Assembly (NCBI GenBank): GCA_016795155.1
Contig: JAEUIE010000029.1
Coordinates: 62,001-126,000, forward strand
Length of the DNA: 64,000 nt
From: Planctomycetia bacterium
GTDB taxonomy: Bacteria; Planctomycetota; Planctomycetia; Gemmatales; HRBIN36
Direction: 5' to 3'
This document shows positions 19,718 through 29,229 of this stretch, in pieces. The position numbers and the translations under genes were made by a program. Position 1 is the first letter of the stretch; every line of letters begins with the position of its first letter. Below the pieces are notes generated by a model. That model made no database searches, had not been told where the DNA came from, and saw only the letters and a program-made list of their open reading frames with translations.

Positions 19718-20275
19718 CTATCGTTGTTCAGCGAAGGATTTCTGCAGTACCAGATTGAGTTCGAGTACCTTCACCAGTGGTGGACAACCTGCCAGGCCAA
19801 ACATTGGTTCATAGGCGTGTTCTTTCAGCAATTTGTCAATGATCGCTTCTGTTTGCGATTCCTGTTGCTGAGTCTTCCTGGCCCACGCCTGTGCAATGCG
19901 TTTCATCTGTAGCTGTGCATTCGCCAAGGTGATGTGGGGGTCCAACCCCGAGCCGGATGCAGTTACAGCATCAGCAGGTATAGTGCCGGTTGACTGGAGG
20001 GTCTTGAGCGCAGCTACCACTCGTTCACGGAGTTTGGGATTGTTCGCCCCTAGGTTGGAACCACCCGAGCCAGCAGCGTTGTAATCCACTGCAGAAGGAC
20101 GTGGCTGAAACCACTCATCCCCCTTGAACGGTTGAGCGATGAGACGGGAGCCGATAACAGTGCCTTTCGCATCAGTCAGCAAGCTGCCTGCAGCCTGGCT
20201 TGGGAATAGTCCCATTCCAATGAGAAACAGCAAGAGTGGATAGCCGATGCAGCACAGCAGCACCGTACCGGCCAC
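19718..20275 (-). CDS. kdpC: Potassium-transporting ATPase KdpC subunit
   Basis: This is the KdpC subunit of the KdpFABC high-affinity K+ pump. It has an N-terminal membrane helix (LLCCIGYPLLLFLIGMGLFP), then KGTVIGSRLIAQPF, a conserved SAVDYNAAGSGGSNLGANNP block, DAVTASGSGLDPHITLANAQ, and a long helix. This start is the GTG at 20275 (185 residues). The frame is open upstream to a TGA at 20324-20326 and would add ISHFRAQLILV, which resembles normal KdpC starts. The only codons available there are ATT (20308) or ATC (20305), preceded by AAGGA at proper spacing. The gene is separated from kdpB by an extra small membrane-protein gene. Confidence 0.92.
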   Translation of the reverse strand: MAGTVLLCCIGYPLLLFLIGMGLFPSQAAGSLLTDAKGTVIGSRLIAQPFKGDEWFQPRPSAVDYNAAGSGGSNLGANNPKLRERVVAALKTLQSTGTIPADAVTASGSGLDPHITLANAQLQMKRIAQAWARKTQQQESQTEAIIDKLLKEHAYEPMFGLAGCPPLVKVLELNLVLQKSFAEQR

Positions 20276-20280
20276 AAGAA

Positions 20281-20598
20281 TCAGTTGTGCACGGAAATGG
20301 CTGATAATTGCGGTATTCCTTCTTCAGCAAGAGTATTGTTCGTGTCGATTTCCATGGCTCCACCGGTGATGGCACCAGCTGCTGTTCCAAGAATGATCAG
20401 GGCGACATAGTCCCAGTAAATGGAACCTGGACAGAGCATGAACGCGAAGAGCAGACCAGCCATCCCGCCAATGCCCGACCAGAGTACTATCACTGCGAGC
20501 ACCTCGCCCTCACGAGTAAGCTGGCTCCAGATACTGACAGGTGCGTTCTGAGCATCATTCCAAGTGGTCGAAGAGTCCCAGGTAGAAGGCGTGATCAT
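20281..20598 (-). CDS. Unrecognised small membrane protein inside the kdp operon
   Basis: This 105-residue product has a soluble N-terminus (about 35 residues, Trp-rich) and two hydrophobic segments: VLAVIVLWSGIGGMAGLLFA near residues 36-55 and DYVALIILGTAAGAITGGAM near 65-85, with glycine zippers. Its ATG at 20598 overlaps the kdpB stop by one base (TGATG). It ends five bases before the GTG proposed for kdpC, or overlaps kdpC if the non-AUG start is used. The coupling argues that it is translated as part of the kdp operon. I know no standard Kdp subunit of this kind. It could be an accessory or assembly factor for the pump; that is inference. Confidence 0.7.
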   Translation of the reverse strand: MITPSTWDSSTTWNDAQNAPVSIWSQLTREGEVLAVIVLWSGIGGMAGLLFAFMLCPGSIYWDYVALIILGTAAGAITGGAMEIDTNNTLAEEGIPQLSAISVHN

Positions 20599-22748
20599 CA
20601 GGCACCCCATACTCCAGCAAGAACCATGTCAATCAGCTTGATGCCTACGAAAGGCACCAATACCCCGCCCAATCCCCACACCAGCAGATTGCGTCGCAAC
20701 AGTGCATCGGCACCGACCGGACGGTAAGTCACACCCTTGAGTGCGATTGGTATCAGACAGGGAATGACGATGGCGTTGAAGATCACCGCTGACAGAATGG
20801 CAGACGTCGGCGAAGCCAGATGCATGAAATCGAGGGACTTCAGCCAGGGCAACGTGTCCGCAAAGAGTGCAGGAACGATGGCGAAGTACTTGGCCATATC
20901 GTTGGCGATGCTGAACGTGGTGAGAGCCCCACGGGTCATCAGCAACTGTTTTCCTACTTCCACGACTTCGATGAGCTTGGTCGGATCGCTATCAAGATCG
21001 ACCATATTCCCTGCTTCTTTGGCTGCCTGGGTACCACTGTTCATGGCCACGCCGACATCAGCCTGGGCGAGGGCCGGTGCATCATTGGTGCCATCGCCCA
21101 TCATGGCTAACAGCTTGCCCCCTGCCTGCTCGCTACGAATGTAGGCCAACTTGGCTTCGGGAGTCGCCTCCGCAATGTAGTCATCTACGCCGGCCTGCTC
21201 AGCGATATGCTTGGCAGTCAGTGGGTTGTCGCCAGTCACCATGACGGTTTTCAGGCCCATTCTTCGGAGTCGTTCGAAGCGATCACGGATGCCGGGCTTC
21301 AGAATGTCTTCGAGCACTACCATACCTGCGATGCGGTTGCCTTCGCAAACCAGTAGTGGTGTAGCACCTTGTCCGGCAGCCTGCTTGGCTTGCTCTTGAA
21401 CCACTTCAGGAGTGGTGCCGTGATTGTACTTGATATATTTCAGCACCGCATCGATAGCCCCCTTGCGAATGCTCTCACCATTGGGAATATCGACCCCACT
21501 CATGCGGGTTTGAGCACTGAATGGGACAAAGTGAGCATTGGCCGGAGGTTCCGCAGCCATGATGTTAACACCGGGTTGTCGCCGGTAGAGTTCGACAATG
21601 CTCTTGCCTTCCGGCGTCTCATCAGACGCTGAAGCCAGGGTTGCCAAGCGACCCACTTCGACAGCGCTGTAATCCCCGAAGGGCACGAAGCGGGTTGCCC
21701 GGCGATTCCCCATGGTGATCGTGCCGGTCTTATCCAGAAGCAGCGTATCGACATCGCCCGCCACCTCGACCGCTTTGCCACTCTTGGCGATGATGTTGGA
21801 CCGAAGAGCCCGATCCATTCCTGCAATACCAATCGCAGCGAGCAAGGCACCAATAGTGGTAGGAATCAGGCAAACCAGCAGTGCCACCAGCGTCGGGATA
21901 TCGGTACCCAGGCTGGAGACTGCAGGCACCCCATTGAAGTCAGCCATGTACTGCTCAGCATGACGTGCCAGTGGCCAGAGTGTTGCTGTGACGATGAGGA
22001 AGATCAGCGTGAAAGCTGCCAGAACAATGGAAAGTGCTATTTCATTGGGTGTACGCTGCCTCTTGGCACCTTCGACGAGGGCGATCATCTTGTCGAGGAA
22101 AGATTCGCCTTGCTTGACCGTCACTTTGACGAGGATGCGATCGGAGAGTACTCGTGTACCACCCGTTACACCAGAACGGTCGCCACCCGCTTCACGAACC
22201 ACCGGAGCAGACTCACCGGTGATGGCTGATTCATCGACGGATGCAACGCCTTCGACGATTTCTCCGTCAGCAGGGATCAGTTCACCTGCCACCACCAGTA
22301 CCACATCACCCTCTGCCAGTTGAGTAGAGACGGTGGTCTCCAAATGCTTCTCACTTGCAGCCGAGAGAGAGACCACCTGTTTGAGTCGAACCGCAGGTGT
22401 TGCCTGACGTGTCTTTCGCAAAGCATCGGCCTGGGCTTTACCCCGTGCTTCTGCCAGTGCTTCTGCAAAGTTGGCAAACAGTAGCGTGATGATGAGCCAG
22501 GCATTGAGCGTCATTAAATAGCTGAGCGGTACCTGAGTTGCTTCCGGGTTGAACACCGCAGCGAAGGTGTAAAGGAGGGAAAGAAAAGTTCCCACCTCGA
22601 CCACGAACATCACCGGGTTCTTCCAGAGAATGTCAGGCCGTAGCATCACGATGGAACGCCAGGCAGCGACCTTCAGCAACTCAGGTGCGAAGATGCTTAA
22701 GCTGCGACTTTGACGGCGAGCCAATTTCGGCTCATTCACAGCGATCAC
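20598..22748 (-). CDS. kdpB: Potassium-transporting ATPase ATP-binding subunit KdpB
   Basis: This 716-residue P-type ATPase catalytic subunit couples ATP hydrolysis to K+ uptake through KdpA. It has DESAITGESAPV (actuator domain), the phosphorylation motif LLLDKTGTITMGN with Asp near 339, the KGA nucleotide-binding motif in IRKGAIDAV, VVTGDNPLTA and MMGDGTNDAPALAQADVG. The start is the GTG at 22748: it is preceded by AAGGAG with six bases of spacing and follows the kdpA stop after ten bases. An earlier in-frame codon (22796) would lie inside kdpA. The protein is slightly longer than the usual 680-700 residues. Confidence 0.97.
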   Translation of the reverse strand: MIAVNEPKLARRQSRSLSIFAPELLKVAAWRSIVMLRPDILWKNPVMFVVEVGTFLSLLYTFAAVFNPEATQVPLSYLMTLNAWLIITLLFANFAEALAEARGKAQADALRKTRQATPAVRLKQVVSLSAASEKHLETTVSTQLAEGDVVLVVAGELIPADGEIVEGVASVDESAITGESAPVVREAGGDRSGVTGGTRVLSDRILVKVTVKQGESFLDKMIALVEGAKRQRTPNEIALSIVLAAFTLIFLIVTATLWPLARHAEQYMADFNGVPAVSSLGTDIPTLVALLVCLIPTTIGALLAAIGIAGMDRALRSNIIAKSGKAVEVAGDVDTLLLDKTGTITMGNRRATRFVPFGDYSAVEVGRLATLASASDETPEGKSIVELYRRQPGVNIMAAEPPANAHFVPFSAQTRMSGVDIPNGESIRKGAIDAVLKYIKYNHGTTPEVVQEQAKQAAGQGATPLLVCEGNRIAGMVVLEDILKPGIRDRFERLRRMGLKTVMVTGDNPLTAKHIAEQAGVDDYIAEATPEAKLAYIRSEQAGGKLLAMMGDGTNDAPALAQADVGVAMNSGTQAAKEAGNMVDLDSDPTKLIEVVEVGKQLLMTRGALTTFSIANDMAKYFAIVPALFADTLPWLKSLDFMHLASPTSAILSAVIFNAIVIPCLIPIALKGVTYRPVGADALLRRNLLVWGLGGVLVPFVGIKLIDMVLAGVWGA

Positions 22749-22758
22749 GGGTAACTCC

Positions 22759-24462
22759 TTATTTGCCGAATGGCATAGTGCCAAGGTGTTCTGCAACTGG
22801 TCCTAACGCAGCGACGGGAAGGAATAACAACGCACCGACCAGGATGATGGTACCTAGCAGCACGAATCCAAAGGTGAGCGTTTCGGTACGAAGGGTTCCG
22901 GTGGTAAAGGGAGTTCGCTTCTTAGCTGCCAGCGATGCAGCCAGGGCAATCGGGGCAATGATCGGCACAAACCGGCAGATGAGCATCACCAGCCCTGTAG
23001 CAATGTCCCAAATCACAGCTCGTTGATTGCTTGGCAGCTTCTCAGGATTGCGGAAGTCGTCAGCGGTGCCAACCGTATCAGCCAGACCTTCGAAGCCTGA
23101 ACCATTGTTCGCGGAGGCGGACGAGAATTCGTAGAGCATTTCGCTCAGCCCATGGGGGCCAGGGTTGTTCACTGCACCGGTACCCCAATCGCTGATGGCT
23201 GCGATACCTGTCGGAACCAGGATCATCAGCGGATGGATGAGGAGTGCCAGCATAGCCAGCTTCATTTCGCGGGCTTCCACTTTCTTGCCCAGGTATTCCG
23301 GGGTCCGTCCTACCATCAGGCCAGCCAGGAAGACCGCGACAATGAGATAGACCAGAAAGTTGATCATCCCCACACCAACGCCACCGAAGATGCAGTTTAG
23401 CCACATGCCTGAAAGTGGTGTCAACCCAGAAAGGGGGTTCAGGCTATCGTGCATGCAATTGACGGAGCCGTTTGAAGTGCAGGTGGTAATCGCTGCCCAC
23501 GTTGGGCCAGCTGAAGGACCAAACCGAAGTTCTTTCCCTTCGAGGTTGCCGTTAATTTGATCCAGTGGCAGTGAATGCAAACCGGGGTTAGGCTGCAACG
23601 TATCGGTGGCGATACCCCAGATGAGGAAGGTCACCAGGAACAGAAGCATCACTCCAAAGAGAAGTGTCGCATGCCGTTGGGCTTTCAGCATGTTGCCAAA
23701 GAGGAACACACAAGCCATGGGGACGAGGATGATGGAGATACATTCGAGATTGTTTGTCCAGGCAGAAGGGTTTTCAAAGGGATGGCACGAGTTCGCACCG
23801 AAGAAGCCACCACCATTGGTTCCCAATTGCTTGATAGCCACGATGGCTGCCACGGGGCCACGGGCGATGGTTTGGTCACCAACAGCCAGCGTCTTCACCG
23901 CCGCAGCGCCTTCCAGTGTCATGGGCACACCACCTGCCAGCAGGAGTACACCAACGATGATAGACAGAGGCAAAAAGACCCAAACGACACCGCGCCATAA
24001 ATCGACATAGAAATTGCCTACGTCTATATCACCCCGCAAGGCACGGATGATGACGAGCAGCGCAGCCAAGCCGATAGCAGGTGTCACGAACTGCTTCCAG
24101 CAGATGAAGAAGAGCTGGCTGAAGTACGAAAGATGCACCTCGCCGGAATAGTGCTGGAGATTCGTGTTGGTCAGGAACGATGCGGCAGTGTTGAAGATCG
24201 TCGTCGGTGCCAGCATCCCCTTGTTATCAGGATTGAGTGGCAACCACGGCTGAAGCAACAACACCAGGAAGCCAATCACAAAGACGAGCACATTGAAACT
24301 CAGCATCGCCAGGCAATACTGCTTCCAGTTCTGTGCACCGGTATCGAGCTGCTTTTCAAGCCAACCTTGTGCAGGACGATCCAGCACTTTCGTGAGATAA
24401 CGACCGAGTGGAATCGAAAGAAGTACAGCTACGAACACTATCAGCAATGGCAGCAGCCACAT
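22759..24462 (-). CDS. kdpA: Potassium-transporting ATPase KdpA subunit
   Basis: This 567-residue channel-like subunit of KdpFABC belongs to the superfamily of K+ transporters with four selectivity-filter segments. Recognisable parts are NTAASFLTNTNLQHYSGE, GTNGGGFFGANSCHPFENP, GVGVGMINFLVYLI and ASANNGSGFEGL. About ten membrane helices are visible. It follows kdpF after 12 bases and precedes kdpB after ten. The length is normal for the family. Confidence 0.97.
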   Translation of the reverse strand: MWLLPLLIVFVAVLLSIPLGRYLTKVLDRPAQGWLEKQLDTGAQNWKQYCLAMLSFNVLVFVIGFLVLLLQPWLPLNPDNKGMLAPTTIFNTAASFLTNTNLQHYSGEVHLSYFSQLFFICWKQFVTPAIGLAALLVIIRALRGDIDVGNFYVDLWRGVVWVFLPLSIIVGVLLLAGGVPMTLEGAAAVKTLAVGDQTIARGPVAAIVAIKQLGTNGGGFFGANSCHPFENPSAWTNNLECISIILVPMACVFLFGNMLKAQRHATLLFGVMLLFLVTFLIWGIATDTLQPNPGLHSLPLDQINGNLEGKELRFGPSAGPTWAAITTCTSNGSVNCMHDSLNPLSGLTPLSGMWLNCIFGGVGVGMINFLVYLIVAVFLAGLMVGRTPEYLGKKVEAREMKLAMLALLIHPLMILVPTGIAAISDWGTGAVNNPGPHGLSEMLYEFSSASANNGSGFEGLADTVGTADDFRNPEKLPSNQRAVIWDIATGLVMLICRFVPIIAPIALAASLAAKKRTPFTTGTLRTETLTFGFVLLGTIILVGALLFLPVAALGPVAEHLGTMPFGK

Positions 24463-24474
24463 GAGATCAAGCTC

Positions 24475-24555
24475 CTAGAACCACTCTGGTCGCAGCAACG
24501 CTGCCACCAGATAGGCAAGTAGAAAGAGGGTCAGGATGATGGTGATCCAGATCAT
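24475..24555 (-). CDS. kdpF: KdpF small subunit
   Basis: This 26-residue peptide (MIWITIILTLFLLAYLVAAL then LRPEWF) is a single membrane helix ending in the L-x-R-P-E-x-F tail typical of KdpF, the peptide that stabilises the KdpABC complex. It lies 12 bases upstream of kdpA. A ribosome site AAGGTG precedes the ATG. Confidence 0.88.
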   Translation of the reverse strand: MIWITIILTLFLLAYLVAALLRPEWF

Positions 24556-24564
24556 GTCAGCACC

Positions 24565-24660
24565 TTAAACCCGTTCGCAGAATCGGACGAAGGCGATCAT
24601 GCCAGCCAGGGCGACGAGGCCCAGAAGCAACATCCCAACGTACCAGGGAAGGAAATCCAT
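24565..24660 (-). CDS. 31-residue membrane micropeptide, first gene of the kdp operon
   Basis: The reading frame encodes MDFLPWYVGMLLLGLVALAG followed by MIAFVRFCERV, one membrane helix with a basic end. A CCGGAG ribosome site sits seven bases before the ATG, and the stop lies nine bases before kdpF. It is not KdpF itself, since it lacks the RPE tail, but it has a similar size and topology. Its start lies about 20 bases downstream of the predicted transcription start of the sigma-54 promoter at 24691-24706. The function is unknown; it may be a second small pump subunit. Confidence 0.65.
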   Translation of the reverse strand: MDFLPWYVGMLLLGLVALAGMIAFVRFCERV

Positions 24661-24690: not shown

Positions 24691-24706
24691 TGCACGGAGC
24701 GTGCCA
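24691..24706 (-). promoter_or_regulatory. Sigma-54 (-24/-12) promoter of the kdp operon
   Basis: On the minus strand the sequence is TGGCACGCTCCGTGCA. The consensus is TGGCACG-N4-TTGCA/T, so all bases match except one T of the -12 element. The GG and GC pairs are ten bases apart, as required. Transcription would start near 24680, about 20 bases before the first kdp micropeptide. An NtrC-type activator is encoded divergently. Confidence 0.82.
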
Positions 24707-24769: not shown

Positions 24770-24811
24770 ATCGTGCAAGTTGCATGGTGGATCGTGCGGA
24801 TTGCAAGATGG
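24770..24811. promoter_or_regulatory. Tandem 21-bp repeats with dyad cores, candidate enhancer for the NtrC-type regulator
   Basis: Two adjacent 21-base units (24770-24790 and 24791-24811) match at 16 of 21 positions. Each contains a dyad: TGCAAGTTGCA at 24774-24784, a perfect inverted repeat around one base, and TGCGGATTGCA at 24795-24805, imperfect. The centres are 21 bp, or two helical turns, apart. They lie about 100-120 bp upstream of the kdp start and 120-140 bp upstream of the regulator's start, the normal position for enhancer-binding protein sites. Confidence 0.65.
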
Positions 24812-24891: not shown

Positions 24892-24907
24892 TGGCATAAG
24901 AGTCGCA
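24892..24907 (+). promoter_or_regulatory. Sigma-54 (-24/-12) promoter of the kdp regulatory operon
   Basis: The sequence TGGCATAAGAGTCGCA has a perfect TGGCA -24 block and GCA in the -12 block, with GG and GC ten bases apart. It is weaker than the opposing kdp promoter because the bases before GC are TC instead of TT. Transcription would begin near 24918, before the TTG start of the regulator at 24938. This would make the regulator autoregulated. Confidence 0.65.
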
Positions 24908-24937: not shown

Positions 24938-26272
24938 TTGCGTCTTTTGATTGTTGATGACGAAGTCAGTTTGCGGCGAACCTTGCGACTGACACTGGAG
25001 AGCATGAAGCATCAGGTAGCGGAAGCTGCCAACGGTGCTGCTGCGCTCCATCTCGTCAGCAAGGAAGACTTCGATATCATCCTCGTCGATCTGAAGCTAG
25101 GCCGCGAATCGGGTCTCGATGTGTTGTCGCAATTGCTGCAAAGCAATCCCACCGCAGGCATTGTGGTGATGACTGCCTATGCTGGTATCGATACTGCAGT
25201 GGAAGCCATGCGGCGGGGAGCGTTCGACTATCTCCCCAAGCCGTTCACTCCGGAACAACTGCGACTCCTACTGAACCGCTGGCAGGAACTGCGTGGCTTA
25301 CGCAGTGAAGTCAACAATTTACGTGAACAAATTAGGCGAGCGCTACCTGAAGTCGATCTACAGACCGTTGTGCCTGCGATGCAATCTGCACTGGATACAG
25401 CCTTCCAGGTGGCACCATCGGAAGCAGCGGTGCTGCTTCGTGGCGAAAGTGGTACAGGCAAAGGGGTGCTCGCCCGGGCCATCCATGCCAAAAGCAAGCG
25501 GGCCAATGCTCCATTCATCACGGTGCATTGCCCCAGTCTCTCCGCTGAGCTTCTCGAAAGCGATCTCTTTGGCCACGTCCGTGGGGCGTTCACTGGAGCA
25601 TTTGAAACCACTCAAGGCAAGGTCGCAGCAGCGGAAGGTGGCACTCTCTTCCTGGATGAAATCGGCGACTTGCCTATAGCACTACAACCCAAGCTGCTTC
25701 GCTTCCTGCAAGAGAAGGCATACGAGCGAGTGGGAGATACGCAGACCCGCATCGGCGATGTACGCATCATCACAGCCACCAATCGCGATCTGGAAGCAGC
25801 GGTTCGTGCGGGTATGTTCCGCGAAGACCTGCTCTATCGACTCAACGTCATCGAGATCACCCTGCCTGCCCTTCGTGAACGTGTACCAGACATCGCTGTA
25901 CTCGCCAAAAACCTGCTGGCATTCTTCGCTGAGCAGGCAGGCAAGCAGGTGACCGGGTTTACTCACGAAGCATTGGCTGCTCTGGAACACCATCGCTGGC
26001 CCGGCAACCTGCGTGAACTTCGCAATGCCATCGAACGGGCAGTGATCCTGGCAAGTGATCAGGAGATTGGCCTGACACAGCTTCCAGTTCCAGTAACAAA
26101 ACTGCACAAGGGGGAGATGTTTCAGTTAGGAGGCAACGTCACCCTGGAGGAACTGGAAGCGGAGCATCTGCGTTTGGTGCTTTCACGTGCAGCATCGCTG
26201 GAGGAGGCAGCAAGTATTCTGGGTATAGATGTCTCCACGCTGTATCGCAAACGCAAGAAGCTGGGATATTAA
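24938..26272 (+). CDS. NtrC-family sigma-54-dependent response regulator of the kdp locus
   Basis: This 444-residue protein has a receiver domain (residues 1-120; Asp51 in LVDLKLGRESG and the acidic pair in IVDDE), then an AAA+ domain (about 140-370) with Walker A GESGTGKGVLAR. It also has the sigma-54-contacting GAFTGA loop, Walker B GGTLFLDEIGD and the sensor region ITATNRDL. A Fis-type HTH ends the protein (EEAASILGIDVSTLYRKRKK). The start is the TTG at 24938 with a GAGGGGA ribosome site. Neighbours are a histidine kinase and KdpD-like sensor downstream and the divergent kdp genes. It therefore probably replaces the OmpR-type KdpE and activates both sigma-54 promoters. The DNA site is probably the dyad pair at 24770-24811. 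Confidence 0.92.
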   Translation: MRLLIVDDEVSLRRTLRLTLESMKHQVAEAANGAAALHLVSKEDFDIILVDLKLGRESGLDVLSQLLQSNPTAGIVVMTAYAGIDTAVEAMRRGAFDYLPKPFTPEQLRLLLNRWQELRGLRSEVNNLREQIRRALPEVDLQTVVPAMQSALDTAFQVAPSEAAVLLRGESGTGKGVLARAIHAKSKRANAPFITVHCPSLSAELLESDLFGHVRGAFTGAFETTQGKVAAAEGGTLFLDEIGDLPIALQPKLLRFLQEKAYERVGDTQTRIGDVRIITATNRDLEAAVRAGMFREDLLYRLNVIEITLPALRERVPDIAVLAKNLLAFFAEQAGKQVTGFTHEALAALEHHRWPGNLRELRNAIERAVILASDQEIGLTQLPVPVTKLHKGEMFQLGGNVTLEELEAEHLRLVLSRAASLEEAASILGIDVSTLYRKRKKLGY

Positions 26273-26284
26273 TTGGGAGGTCGG

Positions 26285-28114
26285 ATGCATACTACGCTTC
26301 GACGCCGGTTGCTGCTGATTATCGCTCCAGTGTTCTTGCTGTTGATCGTTACAGGCGGCATCGGTGCGTGGATCATTGTCTTACTTGGCCAACGCAGCAG
26401 CACTATCTTACGGGAGAATTATGACAGTGTGCGGGCCATGACGAGGATGCTGAGTGCACTGGAGCGTATCGACGAAGCACATCGTCAGGCAGCTTCCGGT
26501 ATCAGTGGCCAGATGCGTGCTCTCCATCAACAAAGCTGGGCTGAGTTTGACCAACAGATGTCGATCGAAGAGAACAATATCACCATATTGCCTGAAGAAC
26601 AGCAGCTGGTCGCATTACTGCAGCCTGCGGCAAAGCGATATCGTCAGATGAGTGATACCTACCTGGTACAGCCTGATAAGCAATTACTCATCTCGCTGAC
26701 CGAGCAACACGCCGAAGTCGTATCGCTGGCCTTACAGATTCGTGATCTGAATGATACCCATATGTATCTGGCCAGCCAGGCAGCGCGAACGACTGCGCAA
26801 CGGGCCATCGTCGGGATTTGTGCTGGGCTGATAGTCGCCCTCGCAATCGTACTGCTGGCCTTATGGTGGATGGATCGCACCGTCGTCGTTCCCCTGAAGG
26901 CGATGCGGGATGCCGCTCGCTCCATAGGCCAGGGTGAATTGCAGTTAGTAGTGCCCGTACTTAGTCATGATGAAATCGGTGATTTGGCGAACGAGTTCAA
27001 CGCTATGACGCGCAAACTCCGTGGCTACAAGCAGTCAGATCTTGAAACACTTCGCCTTGCCCAGCAAACCCGTCAGGCGACCATTGATTCGTTCCCCGAT
27101 CCAGTCATCGTGCTCAATCCGCAAGGACAGCTTGAATCAGCCAATCCCGCTGCTCAACAACTTTTCGGAATTAGCTCACCCAGTCCTGATAATACAGGGC
27201 CACACTGGGTACCTCCTGAGCAGTTGCAGAAAATGGTCGAGAATGCCCGCACACAACGACTTAACATAGAAAGCAACAGTTTTCGTGACGTTGTGACATT
27301 TCGCTTCAGCAATGAAGAACGTGCCTACTTACCGCAAATCCGGCGGATCGAATCGCCAGAGCAGGCTTACCTCGGCACTGCTGTGGTTCTTAACGATGTC
27401 ACTCGGTTTCGGCTTCTGGACAAGTACAAAACTGATTGGGTTGCTACGGTCAGCCATGAACTGAAGACGCCCCTTACCAGCGTTCGTTTGGCGGTGCATG
27501 TGCTGCTGGAGGAAGTGGTTGGCTCTCTAAATCCGAAACAGATAGAACTCCTGCTCGAAGCACGTGACGGCACCGAACGGCTCTTCAAGCTCATCGAACA
27601 ATTGCTTGCACTGGCTCGGCTGGAAGACTCGGCGGAGCTTTTGCAGCGAGAAATGGTGGATATTCGTGCATTATTGCAATCATGTATTGATGAGGTGCAA
27701 TCGCGGCTGGATGACAAGCAGCTTGAATTCACATTGGATGTCGCTCCACGCATGCCTTTGTCCTTCCTCGATCCCATTCGACTCAAGCGGGCTGTGTCCA
27801 ACCTGCTCGATAATGCGATTCAGTACACACCGCGAGGGGGGAGAATCATGCTACGAGCAGAACCGACATCGACCAACCATATTAAACTCACGTTGAACGA
27901 TTCCGGAGTGGGCATCCCTGCTGAGTATTTACCGAAGGTCTTCGACCGTTTCTTTCGCGTCCCAGATCAGGATCAAACCCCGGGCACTGGCTTGGGCCTG
28001 GCCATCGTGAAGGAAATCGTCGAAGCACACGGTGGAGAAATCGCCTGCGAAAGCCAGTCGGGTCAAGGTACCGCATTTATCATCACGCTGCCAACGAGCG
28101 GGGGTGCGGAATGA
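26285..28114 (+). CDS. Sensor histidine kinase (HAMP-PAS-HisKA-HATPase)
   Basis: This 609-residue membrane kinase has a helix near 9-34, an extracytoplasmic helical domain of about 135 residues, a helix near 172-196, HAMP (197-250) and PAS (about 265-380, with DSFPDPVIVLNPQG). HisKA follows with the phospho-acceptor His391 in VSHELKTPLTSVRLAV, then HATPase_c with NLLDNAIQYTP, DSGVGIP and GTGLGLAIVKEIVEAHGG. The start is the ATG at 26285 after GGGAGG, 12 bases past the regulator's stop. It overlaps the KdpD-like gene by ATGA. It should phosphorylate the NtrC-type regulator. The extracytoplasmic ligand is unknown. Confidence 0.93.
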   Translation: MHTTLRRRLLLIIAPVFLLLIVTGGIGAWIIVLLGQRSSTILRENYDSVRAMTRMLSALERIDEAHRQAASGISGQMRALHQQSWAEFDQQMSIEENNITILPEEQQLVALLQPAAKRYRQMSDTYLVQPDKQLLISLTEQHAEVVSLALQIRDLNDTHMYLASQAARTTAQRAIVGICAGLIVALAIVLLALWWMDRTVVVPLKAMRDAARSIGQGELQLVVPVLSHDEIGDLANEFNAMTRKLRGYKQSDLETLRLAQQTRQATIDSFPDPVIVLNPQGQLESANPAAQQLFGISSPSPDNTGPHWVPPEQLQKMVENARTQRLNIESNSFRDVVTFRFSNEERAYLPQIRRIESPEQAYLGTAVVLNDVTRFRLLDKYKTDWVATVSHELKTPLTSVRLAVHVLLEEVVGSLNPKQIELLLEARDGTERLFKLIEQLLALARLEDSAELLQREMVDIRALLQSCIDEVQSRLDDKQLEFTLDVAPRMPLSFLDPIRLKRAVSNLLDNAIQYTPRGGRIMLRAEPTSTNHIKLTLNDSGVGIPAEYLPKVFDRFFRVPDQDQTPGTGLGLAIVKEIVEAHGGEIACESQSGQGTAFIITLPTSGGAE

Positions 28115-29229
28115 CGCCAAACCGCGACCCTGAACACTTTCTCGGCCTCATTCGCTCGCAGCAACGCGGAAAACTGAAGATATACCTCGGCTTCGCTCCC
28201 GGTGTCGGCAAAACCTACGAGATGCTTCAGGAAGGCCAGCGGCTGCAGAAGCAGGGAATCGATGTCGTCGTCGGAATCCTGGAAACACATGGCCGTACCG
28301 AAACGGCAGCACAGATTGGCACCCTGGAGCTAATACCTCGCAGAATGGTGGAGTATCGGGGAGTAAAACTCGAAGAACTGGACCTGGAGGGTCTACTTCG
28401 ACGCAAGCCTACCGTGGCACTCATTGACGAACTGGCTCACACGAACGCTCCAGGCTCTCGCAACAGCAAACGTTATCAGGATGTAGAAGAAATCCTGCGG
28501 GGTGGCATCCATGTCATTACCACTCTCAACATCCAGCACATCGAAAGCCTCTACGATGTGATCGAACAATTCACCGGCATCAAAGTTAAGGAACGCGTGC
28601 CGGATCATGTGCTTGCTCAGGCTGATCAGATCATTAATGTCGATGTCGCCGCCGAGGATTTACAGGACAGGCTGAAGCAAGGCAAAGTCTATCCACGCGA
28701 GCGTGTCGAACGCGCCTTGGCGAACTTCTTCACCGCGGAGAATCTCAGTCGTCTGCGTGAACTTACCCTGGAGGAAATTGCTTCTGCTCTCGATCGTCAG
28801 CGCCAGCAGCGTACCGGGACTACCGTCAATGCTTCCGACCGCGTGATGGTCTGCCTCAGTTCCCGCAGTCCTAACCTCCATCGGCTCCTCCGCAAGGCTG
28901 CACGCCTGGCAGATCGCTTCAACGCACCCCTTTATGCTGTCTATGTGCAGACGCCCCGTGAAGCCATGGACAAAGTCGATGCCGCATTGCAGCGGCAGAT
29001 CACGGAAGCCCAGACCCTTGCTCAGCAACTCGGCGCTATTCCGATGCAGTTCAAAGGTGAGACATTCGAAGCCACCGTGGCAGCTTTCGTTGCCGAGTAC
29101 AACATCACTCATATCGTCATGGGCCGTTCCCAGCTTCCCTGGTATCGTCGCTGGTTTGGCAACTCCCCCGTGGAACGATTGCTGTCCCAGGTGCCCATGG
29201 TCGATGTGACTTTGGTGGATGTGAAGTAG
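28111..29229 (+). CDS. Truncated KdpD: sensor ATPase plus universal stress domain, no kinase
   Basis: The 372-residue protein matches the cytoplasmic N-terminus of KdpD. It has Walker A GFAPGVGKTYEML (Lys34), the conserved GILETHGRTET, Walker B VALIDELAHTNAPGSRNSKR and the ITTLNIQHIESL block, then a UspA-like domain from about residue 245 with the nucleotide motif MGRSQLPWYRRWFGNSPVERLL. The four-helix membrane region and histidine kinase of full-length KdpD are absent. The frame ends naturally after the Usp domain, so this is a stand-alone sensor protein. It overlaps the histidine kinase gene by ATGA and probably acts in trans on that kinase. Short KdpD forms are known in other phyla, such as cyanobacteria. 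Confidence 0.93.
   Translation: MTPNRDPEHFLGLIRSQQRGKLKIYLGFAPGVGKTYEMLQEGQRLQKQGIDVVVGILETHGRTETAAQIGTLELIPRRMVEYRGVKLEELDLEGLLRRKPTVALIDELAHTNAPGSRNSKRYQDVEEILRGGIHVITTLNIQHIESLYDVIEQFTGIKVKERVPDHVLAQADQIINVDVAAEDLQDRLKQGKVYPRERVERALANFFTAENLSRLRELTLEEIASALDRQRQQRTGTTVNASDRVMVCLSSRSPNLHRLLRKAARLADRFNAPLYAVYVQTPREAMDKVDAALQRQITEAQTLAQQLGAIPMQFKGETFEATVAAFVAEYNITHIVMGRSQLPWYRRWFGNSPVERLLSQVPMVDVTLVDVK

Follow-up and report, generated by a model that had tools for sequence, protein, structure and literature searches.

A tandem pair of dyad-symmetric sites at positions 24770 to 24811 of the window, which is the whole 64-kb stretch of DNA that was analysed, is probably the upstream activating sequence (UAS, or enhancer) of an NtrC-family regulator encoded next to it at 24938 to 26272. 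Judging from the sequence, this pair would drive the kdp operon and, in this genome, also the operon of the regulator itself. The array is a new and well-conserved case of an arrangement that has precedents, with NtrC-type control of kdp and dual sigma-54 promoters both already known elsewhere.

The array, its promoters and the neighbouring genes

Direct reading of the two units, ATCGTGCAAGTTGCATGGTGG (24770 to 24790) and ATCGTGCGGATTGCAAGATGG (24791 to 24811), reveals identity at 16 of 21 bases. The first unit contains a strong and perfect dyad, TGCAA-G-TTGCA (TGCAAGTTGCA, 24774 to 24784), which is the sole exact TGCAANTTGCA within the 64-kb window and is where the NtrC-type regulator is predicted to bind. 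The second unit contains a weak dyad, TGCGG-A-TTGCA (TGCGGATTGCA, 24795 to 24805), which is imperfect, with three of five arm pairs, and keeps the TGC-N5-GCA core common to both. The dyad centres, at 24779 and 24800, are spaced by exactly 21 bp. An earlier note on this DNA, made from the sequence alone, had claimed a tandem 21-bp repeat with dyad centres two helical turns apart, and both claims agree with these readings; its description of both units as TGCAA-N-TTGCA dyads is exact for the first, but the second shares only the core.

The array is located between two sigma-54-type -24/-12 elements, one directed toward the kdp operon and the other toward the regulator gene. The kdp-facing element, TGGCACGCTCCGTGCA (24691 to 24706, minus strand), matches 11 of 12 consensus positions, which is the joint best score in the window; between its end and the first small ORF downstream lie 30 bp, and between its -24 edge and the distal dyad 99 bp. 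The regulator-facing element, TGGCATAAGAGTCGCA (24892 to 24907, plus strand), matches 9 of 12 positions, and the near dyad is 97 bp from its -24 edge; it is the weaker of the two promoters in the window, and about half of the relatives lack it. Both distances fall within the range expected of a UAS, which consists of at least two dyads with a -24/-12 promoter approximately 80 to 150 bp away, and the placement at enhancer distance from two promoters proposed earlier is thus borne out.

On the plus strand, the gene at 24938 to 26272 (start codon TTG) encodes a response regulator with a receiver domain, an AAA+ domain and a Fis-type helix-turn-helix (HTH) domain (Pfam PF00072, PF00158, and PF02954, respectively) and has GAFTGA at residue 216. 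These domains, together with the one sigma-54 gene in the genome (PF04552 match of 1e-59), identify it as a sigma-54-dependent regulator of the NtrC family. The same strand encodes a histidine kinase with HAMP, PAS, HisKA, and HATPase domains (26273 to 28114) and a separate KdpD N-terminal sensor domain with a Usp domain (28111 to 29229). On the minus strand, the kdp transcript opens with the ORF of a 31-amino-acid predicted membrane peptide (24565 to 24660), which is kept in relatives; then come kdpF (24475 to 24555; 26 amino acids), kdpA (22759 to 24462), kdpB (20598 to 22796, given as the longest ORF, whose true start may be internal), and kdpC (19718 to 20275). A kdp transcript start at 24706 to 24691 is credible because this promoter immediately precedes the opening ORF of the operon, the one that encodes the approximately 30-amino-acid peptide and is followed by kdpF.

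This peptide, with a sequence of roughly MDLxxWxPxxxLLGLAxxGLMFAFVxACDKV, is encoded upstream of kdpF by the leading ORF of most kdp transcripts and was present in relatives L057 to L072, L107 to L110, L164, L174, and L178. The 31-amino-acid peptide of the window had no match in Pfam or NCBIfam, and the conserved peptide might represent a small subunit of Kdp that has not been described before. At the other end of the operon, KdpC matches were split in two pieces in several loci (L060, L065 to L070, and L072), which suggests a large insertion within kdpC.

Conservation of the dyads at kdp

The regulator was searched for in 60 related genomes, and larger regions were then fetched and mapped. 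The divergent arrangement of kdpA and the regulator gene is shared with 13 relatives (regulator identity of 58 to 71%), and TGCAANTTGCA with at most one mismatch occurs in all 14 of these divergent gaps, the window included. A second copy of the dyad lies at exactly 21 bp in most of the 13 relatives. Together with four loci without an adjacent regulator gene, these gaps make up a first set of 18 kdp loci. The dyad is present in 18 of 18, and a tandem pair at 21 bp with at least 11 of 12 core positions is present in 14, whereas each of the remaining spacings between 12 and 45 is represented by 0 to 3 loci. In a motif-free scan covering all 3-mer dyads, gaps of 0 to 12, and spacings up to 60, TGC-N5-GCA at 21 bp ranked first and was exact in 8 of 16 non-redundant loci.

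A second set, consisting of 10 further divergent gaps from other genomes, was obtained by a class-wide search in which the motif was not used. This set also peaks at 21 bp, with a mean of 10.2 of 12 positions versus 8.17 ± 0.23 in shuffles; one of its members, L160, carries a pair of perfect dyads spaced by 23 bp. When 24 loci are profiled position by position in the kdp orientation, the result is TGCAwnTTGCAa, nine bases, and TGCrrnTTGCAa; the dyads are rich in information, and the positions outside them carry little. The dyads are kept together with the promoter in the activator-bearing relatives, the distance from the kdp-facing -24 element to the distal dyad being 108 to 113 bp in 18 of 26 loci. 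The 99 bp measured in the window is about one helical turn shorter. Among the loci with atypical distances (76, 98, 99, 124, 131, 131, and 185 bp), helical phasing of the promoter is suggestive at best (R = 0.54, n = 7). The earlier note had advised looking for dyad pairs upstream of kdp in regulator-bearing genomes and had held that loss of the dyads in relatives keeping the -24/-12 elements would speak against an enhancer. Instead, both the dyads and the 21-bp spacing persist upstream of kdp in relatives with the divergent regulator arrangement, in this taxonomic order and in neighbouring ones.

The array also remains in place where the regulator genes have moved. In genomes G038 and G047, the regulator-kinase cluster is located on another contig, accompanied in G047 by the KdpD N-terminal domain gene. 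The kdp loci of both genomes (L107 and L108) retain the dyads and the sigma-54 site, and no such dyad was found upstream of their relocated regulator genes (L062 and L063). In G055, the regulator alone has been relocated, and the array, with dyads and sigma-54 site kept, has the kinase gene on one side and kdpA on the other (L110). Since the dyads stay at kdp in all three genomes, the array tracks kdp, its conserved target.

One-way and two-way arrays

The distance between the array and the regulator gene differs among loci, and the presence of a regulator-facing promoter differs with it. The array is 91 to 230 bp from the gene in nine loci, namely the window (132 bp), L057, L058, L059, L061, L170, L175, L177, and L178. 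A regulator-facing sigma-54 site with a score of at least 11.9 was found in all nine, for a chance of approximately 0.05 to 0.1 per locus; the eight loci other than the window thus hold counterparts of the element at 24892 to 24907 and, as far as sequence can tell, share with it sigma-54 promoters facing both ways. In the 13 loci in which the array is 13 to 41 bp from the regulator gene, no convincing regulator-facing site was found, the best score being 8.7. In the closest relatives with complete gaps (L057, L058, and L059) and in L169, the regulator-facing site scores 13.5 to 14 and lies 39 to 76 bp from the start codon. On the regulator tree, L057, L058, L059, L168, and L169 form a group with the window (97% support), and four of its six members are two-sided. 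The contigs of the other two end close to the gene, L169 having a good site (13.5) and L168 having none. A second two-sided group on the tree contains L061, L170, L175, L177, and L178.

The suggestion that one array could serve both directions is therefore well supported as a prediction for the window, holding for its clade and five more distant loci, but it is not universal, as the 13 relatives without a regulator-facing site indicate. Since the arrays of those relatives abut the regulator gene and lack such a site, the conserved job is taken to be kdp activation, with sharing limited to certain clades. An array that serves kdp only, even in the window, would agree with these 13 relatives, with the persistence of the dyads at kdp after separation of the genes, and with the modest consensus match of the plus-strand site; the regulator operon would then use another promoter, of sigma-70 type or constitutive, and the element at 24892 to 24907 would be a chance match or a relic. 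This is unlikely, however, because L057, L058, L059, and L169 keep the regulator-facing site and because every one of the nine loci with space for it possesses one.

The proximity of the dyads to the regulator start codon in the 13 relatives, 13 to 41 bp, is such that a bound protein could block transcription, and negative autoregulation by PspF is a precedent (PMC7229158). Repression of the regulator gene by the array is thus plausible in these one-sided relatives. As an account of the window, in which the array would repress the regulator gene in a PspF-like manner while activating the divergent target, it is decidedly unlikely, because activation is the better fit where 132 bp and a sigma-54 site separate the array from the gene.

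Activation by the adjacent regulator presupposes that this protein reads the dyads, which is a prediction; the reader might instead be a different paralogue of NtrC or some dimeric regulator unrelated to it. The genome contains about ten strong sigma-54 activator genes. Perfect dyads occur at kdp in G026 (L109), a genome in which an orthologous regulator was not found, perhaps owing to an assembly gap or to replacement of the regulator. In addition, no dyad was found in co-directional regulator/kinase/kdp loci (L039, several of L149 to L167, L184, and the deltaproteobacterial L040 and L041), nor in those of the Isosphaeraceae type, and the orthologous regulators of the dyad-less co-directional loci have a similar HTH. 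A different reader is nevertheless very improbable, since the dyads accompany kdp where the regulator exists and are absent from kdp in nine genomes that lack it but encode other NtrC paralogues. The kdp loci of these nine genomes, which are from the same taxonomic order and have no orthologous regulator, served as controls, and their upstream regions contained no dyad at up to one mismatch and no 21-bp signal (8.44 versus 8.38). They belong to a different kdp lineage (KdpA identity of 40 to 45%), and the co-occurrence of dyad and regulator is thus partly a matter of shared ancestry.

Two further groups of loci were observed. A sister regulator subfamily (48 to 50% identity; L073, L074, L075, and L076) has its own kinase and lies near a distant P-type ATPase that is not kdp; dyads are absent from these four loci, and the subfamily may control another cation pump. 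In other families of the class (L151, L171, L172, and L180), dyads lie upstream of the regulator gene, and kdpA is 2 to 4 kb away or not nearby. The dyad pair of L151 is spaced at exactly 21 bp, and the genes between regulator and kdpA in these loci may be further targets.

Chance expectation was estimated by shuffling and by pattern searches. The tandem score was matched in 0 of 5,000 dinucleotide shuffles of the 277-bp intergenic stretch, and a perfect dyad arose in 3 of 5,000. A motif-blind version, requiring a perfect 5+1+5 dyad with a 16/21 tandem copy, was matched in 0 of 3,000. Genome-wide, the pattern TGC-N5-GCA/N10/TGC-N5-GCA occurs 5 times in 5.28 Mb, or approximately 0.0003 expected times in a given 277-bp gap. 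That the units arose by chance or by a recent local duplication without function, as an identity of just 16 of 21 bases across so short a stretch might allow, can be dismissed given the shuffles and a 21-bp spacing kept across many genera with low information outside the dyads, and this comparative evidence together with the shuffles rules out simple duplication. A wider regulon was also looked for. Five of the other whole-genome matches to the pair pattern were retrieved, two from the genome of the window and three from relatives, and all five lie within ORFs and were taken as chance.

Predicted circuit and known systems

In the proposed mechanism, the split KdpD-type sensing system (26273 to 28114 and 28111 to 29229) would signal potassium need, and the phosphorylated regulator would bind as two neighbouring dimers, one per dyad, lying two turns from each other on the same helix face. 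Its AAA+ ring would then assemble and loop to sigma-54 polymerase at 24706 to 24691, opening the kdp promoter and switching on the 31-amino-acid ORF and kdpFABC. The bound array may also loop rightward to 24892 to 24907 in this genome and those closest to it, which would result in positive autoregulation of the regulator operon at low potassium.

A literature search brought up no publication that deals with the element, and none on how kdp is controlled in this group of bacteria. One of the two closest precedents comes from Desulfovibrio vulgaris Hildenborough, whose kdp operon is bound and regulated by DVU3334, a regulator of the NtrC type (Rajeev et al. 2011, PMC3333781), in a system that has a split KdpD (PMC3333781; PMC4641369). 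The window has the same gene content, with an NtrC-type regulator containing GAFTGA, a KdpD split such that sensor and Usp domains are apart from the kinase, and kdpFABC as the target. A binding motif has been reported for DVU3334, and orthologues are found in Syntrophobacter fumaroxidans. However, DVU3334 is co-cistronic with kdp, whereas the window regulator is divergent. Its deltaproteobacterial relatives, L040 and L041, are without TGC-N5-GCA in their upstream gaps and have a different recognition helix (VTLWRRRK, compared with STLYRKRK).

The other of the two, the zraP/zraSR (hydHG) system of enteric bacteria, resembles the window in that a target and a two-component operon have sigma-54 promoters and an NtrC-type regulator, but its target and signal are different. 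The ZraR site is also not known to follow TGC-N5-GCA, and the window regulator scores 348 bits with the NCBIfam ZraR model, far under the cut-off of 760. Both sigma-54 promoters of that system are under one regulator, ZraR (PMC3844500; PMC7657598), and they are 168 bp apart in Salmonella (PMC3844500). Escherichia coli KdpDE controls the same pump operon and has the KdpD sensor domain, but it involves no sigma-54 enhancer, KdpE being a winged-helix regulator that acts on direct AT-rich half-sites (PMC3264566). Control by an OmpR-type KdpE, or a KdpE site, was rejected for the window, where the adjacent regulator is of NtrC type and not winged-helix. In pspF/pspA and norR/norVW, the activator gene is divergent from a sigma-54 target, with the activator sites between them. 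These two systems resemble the one-sided relatives; in contrast to the prediction for the window, the activator gene is not activated via the array, and neither is a two-component potassium system.

The array and its circuit provide a concrete predicted binding site for sigma-54 activator control of the potassium pump in this bacterial group, and they would explain how kdp is controlled where an NtrC-type regulator replaces KdpE. The clean split between two-sided and one-sided loci offers a comparative system for the gain or loss of an enhancer shared by divergent promoters. We tentatively suggest, as a possibility that is still rather doubtful, that the array moved relative to the regulator gene in evolution, being a two-way switch with positive feedback in some lineages, that of the window among them, and an abutting, one-way and possibly repressing element in sister lineages. 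If this is true, the moved array would be a natural series of changes in the sign of feedback within one circuit.
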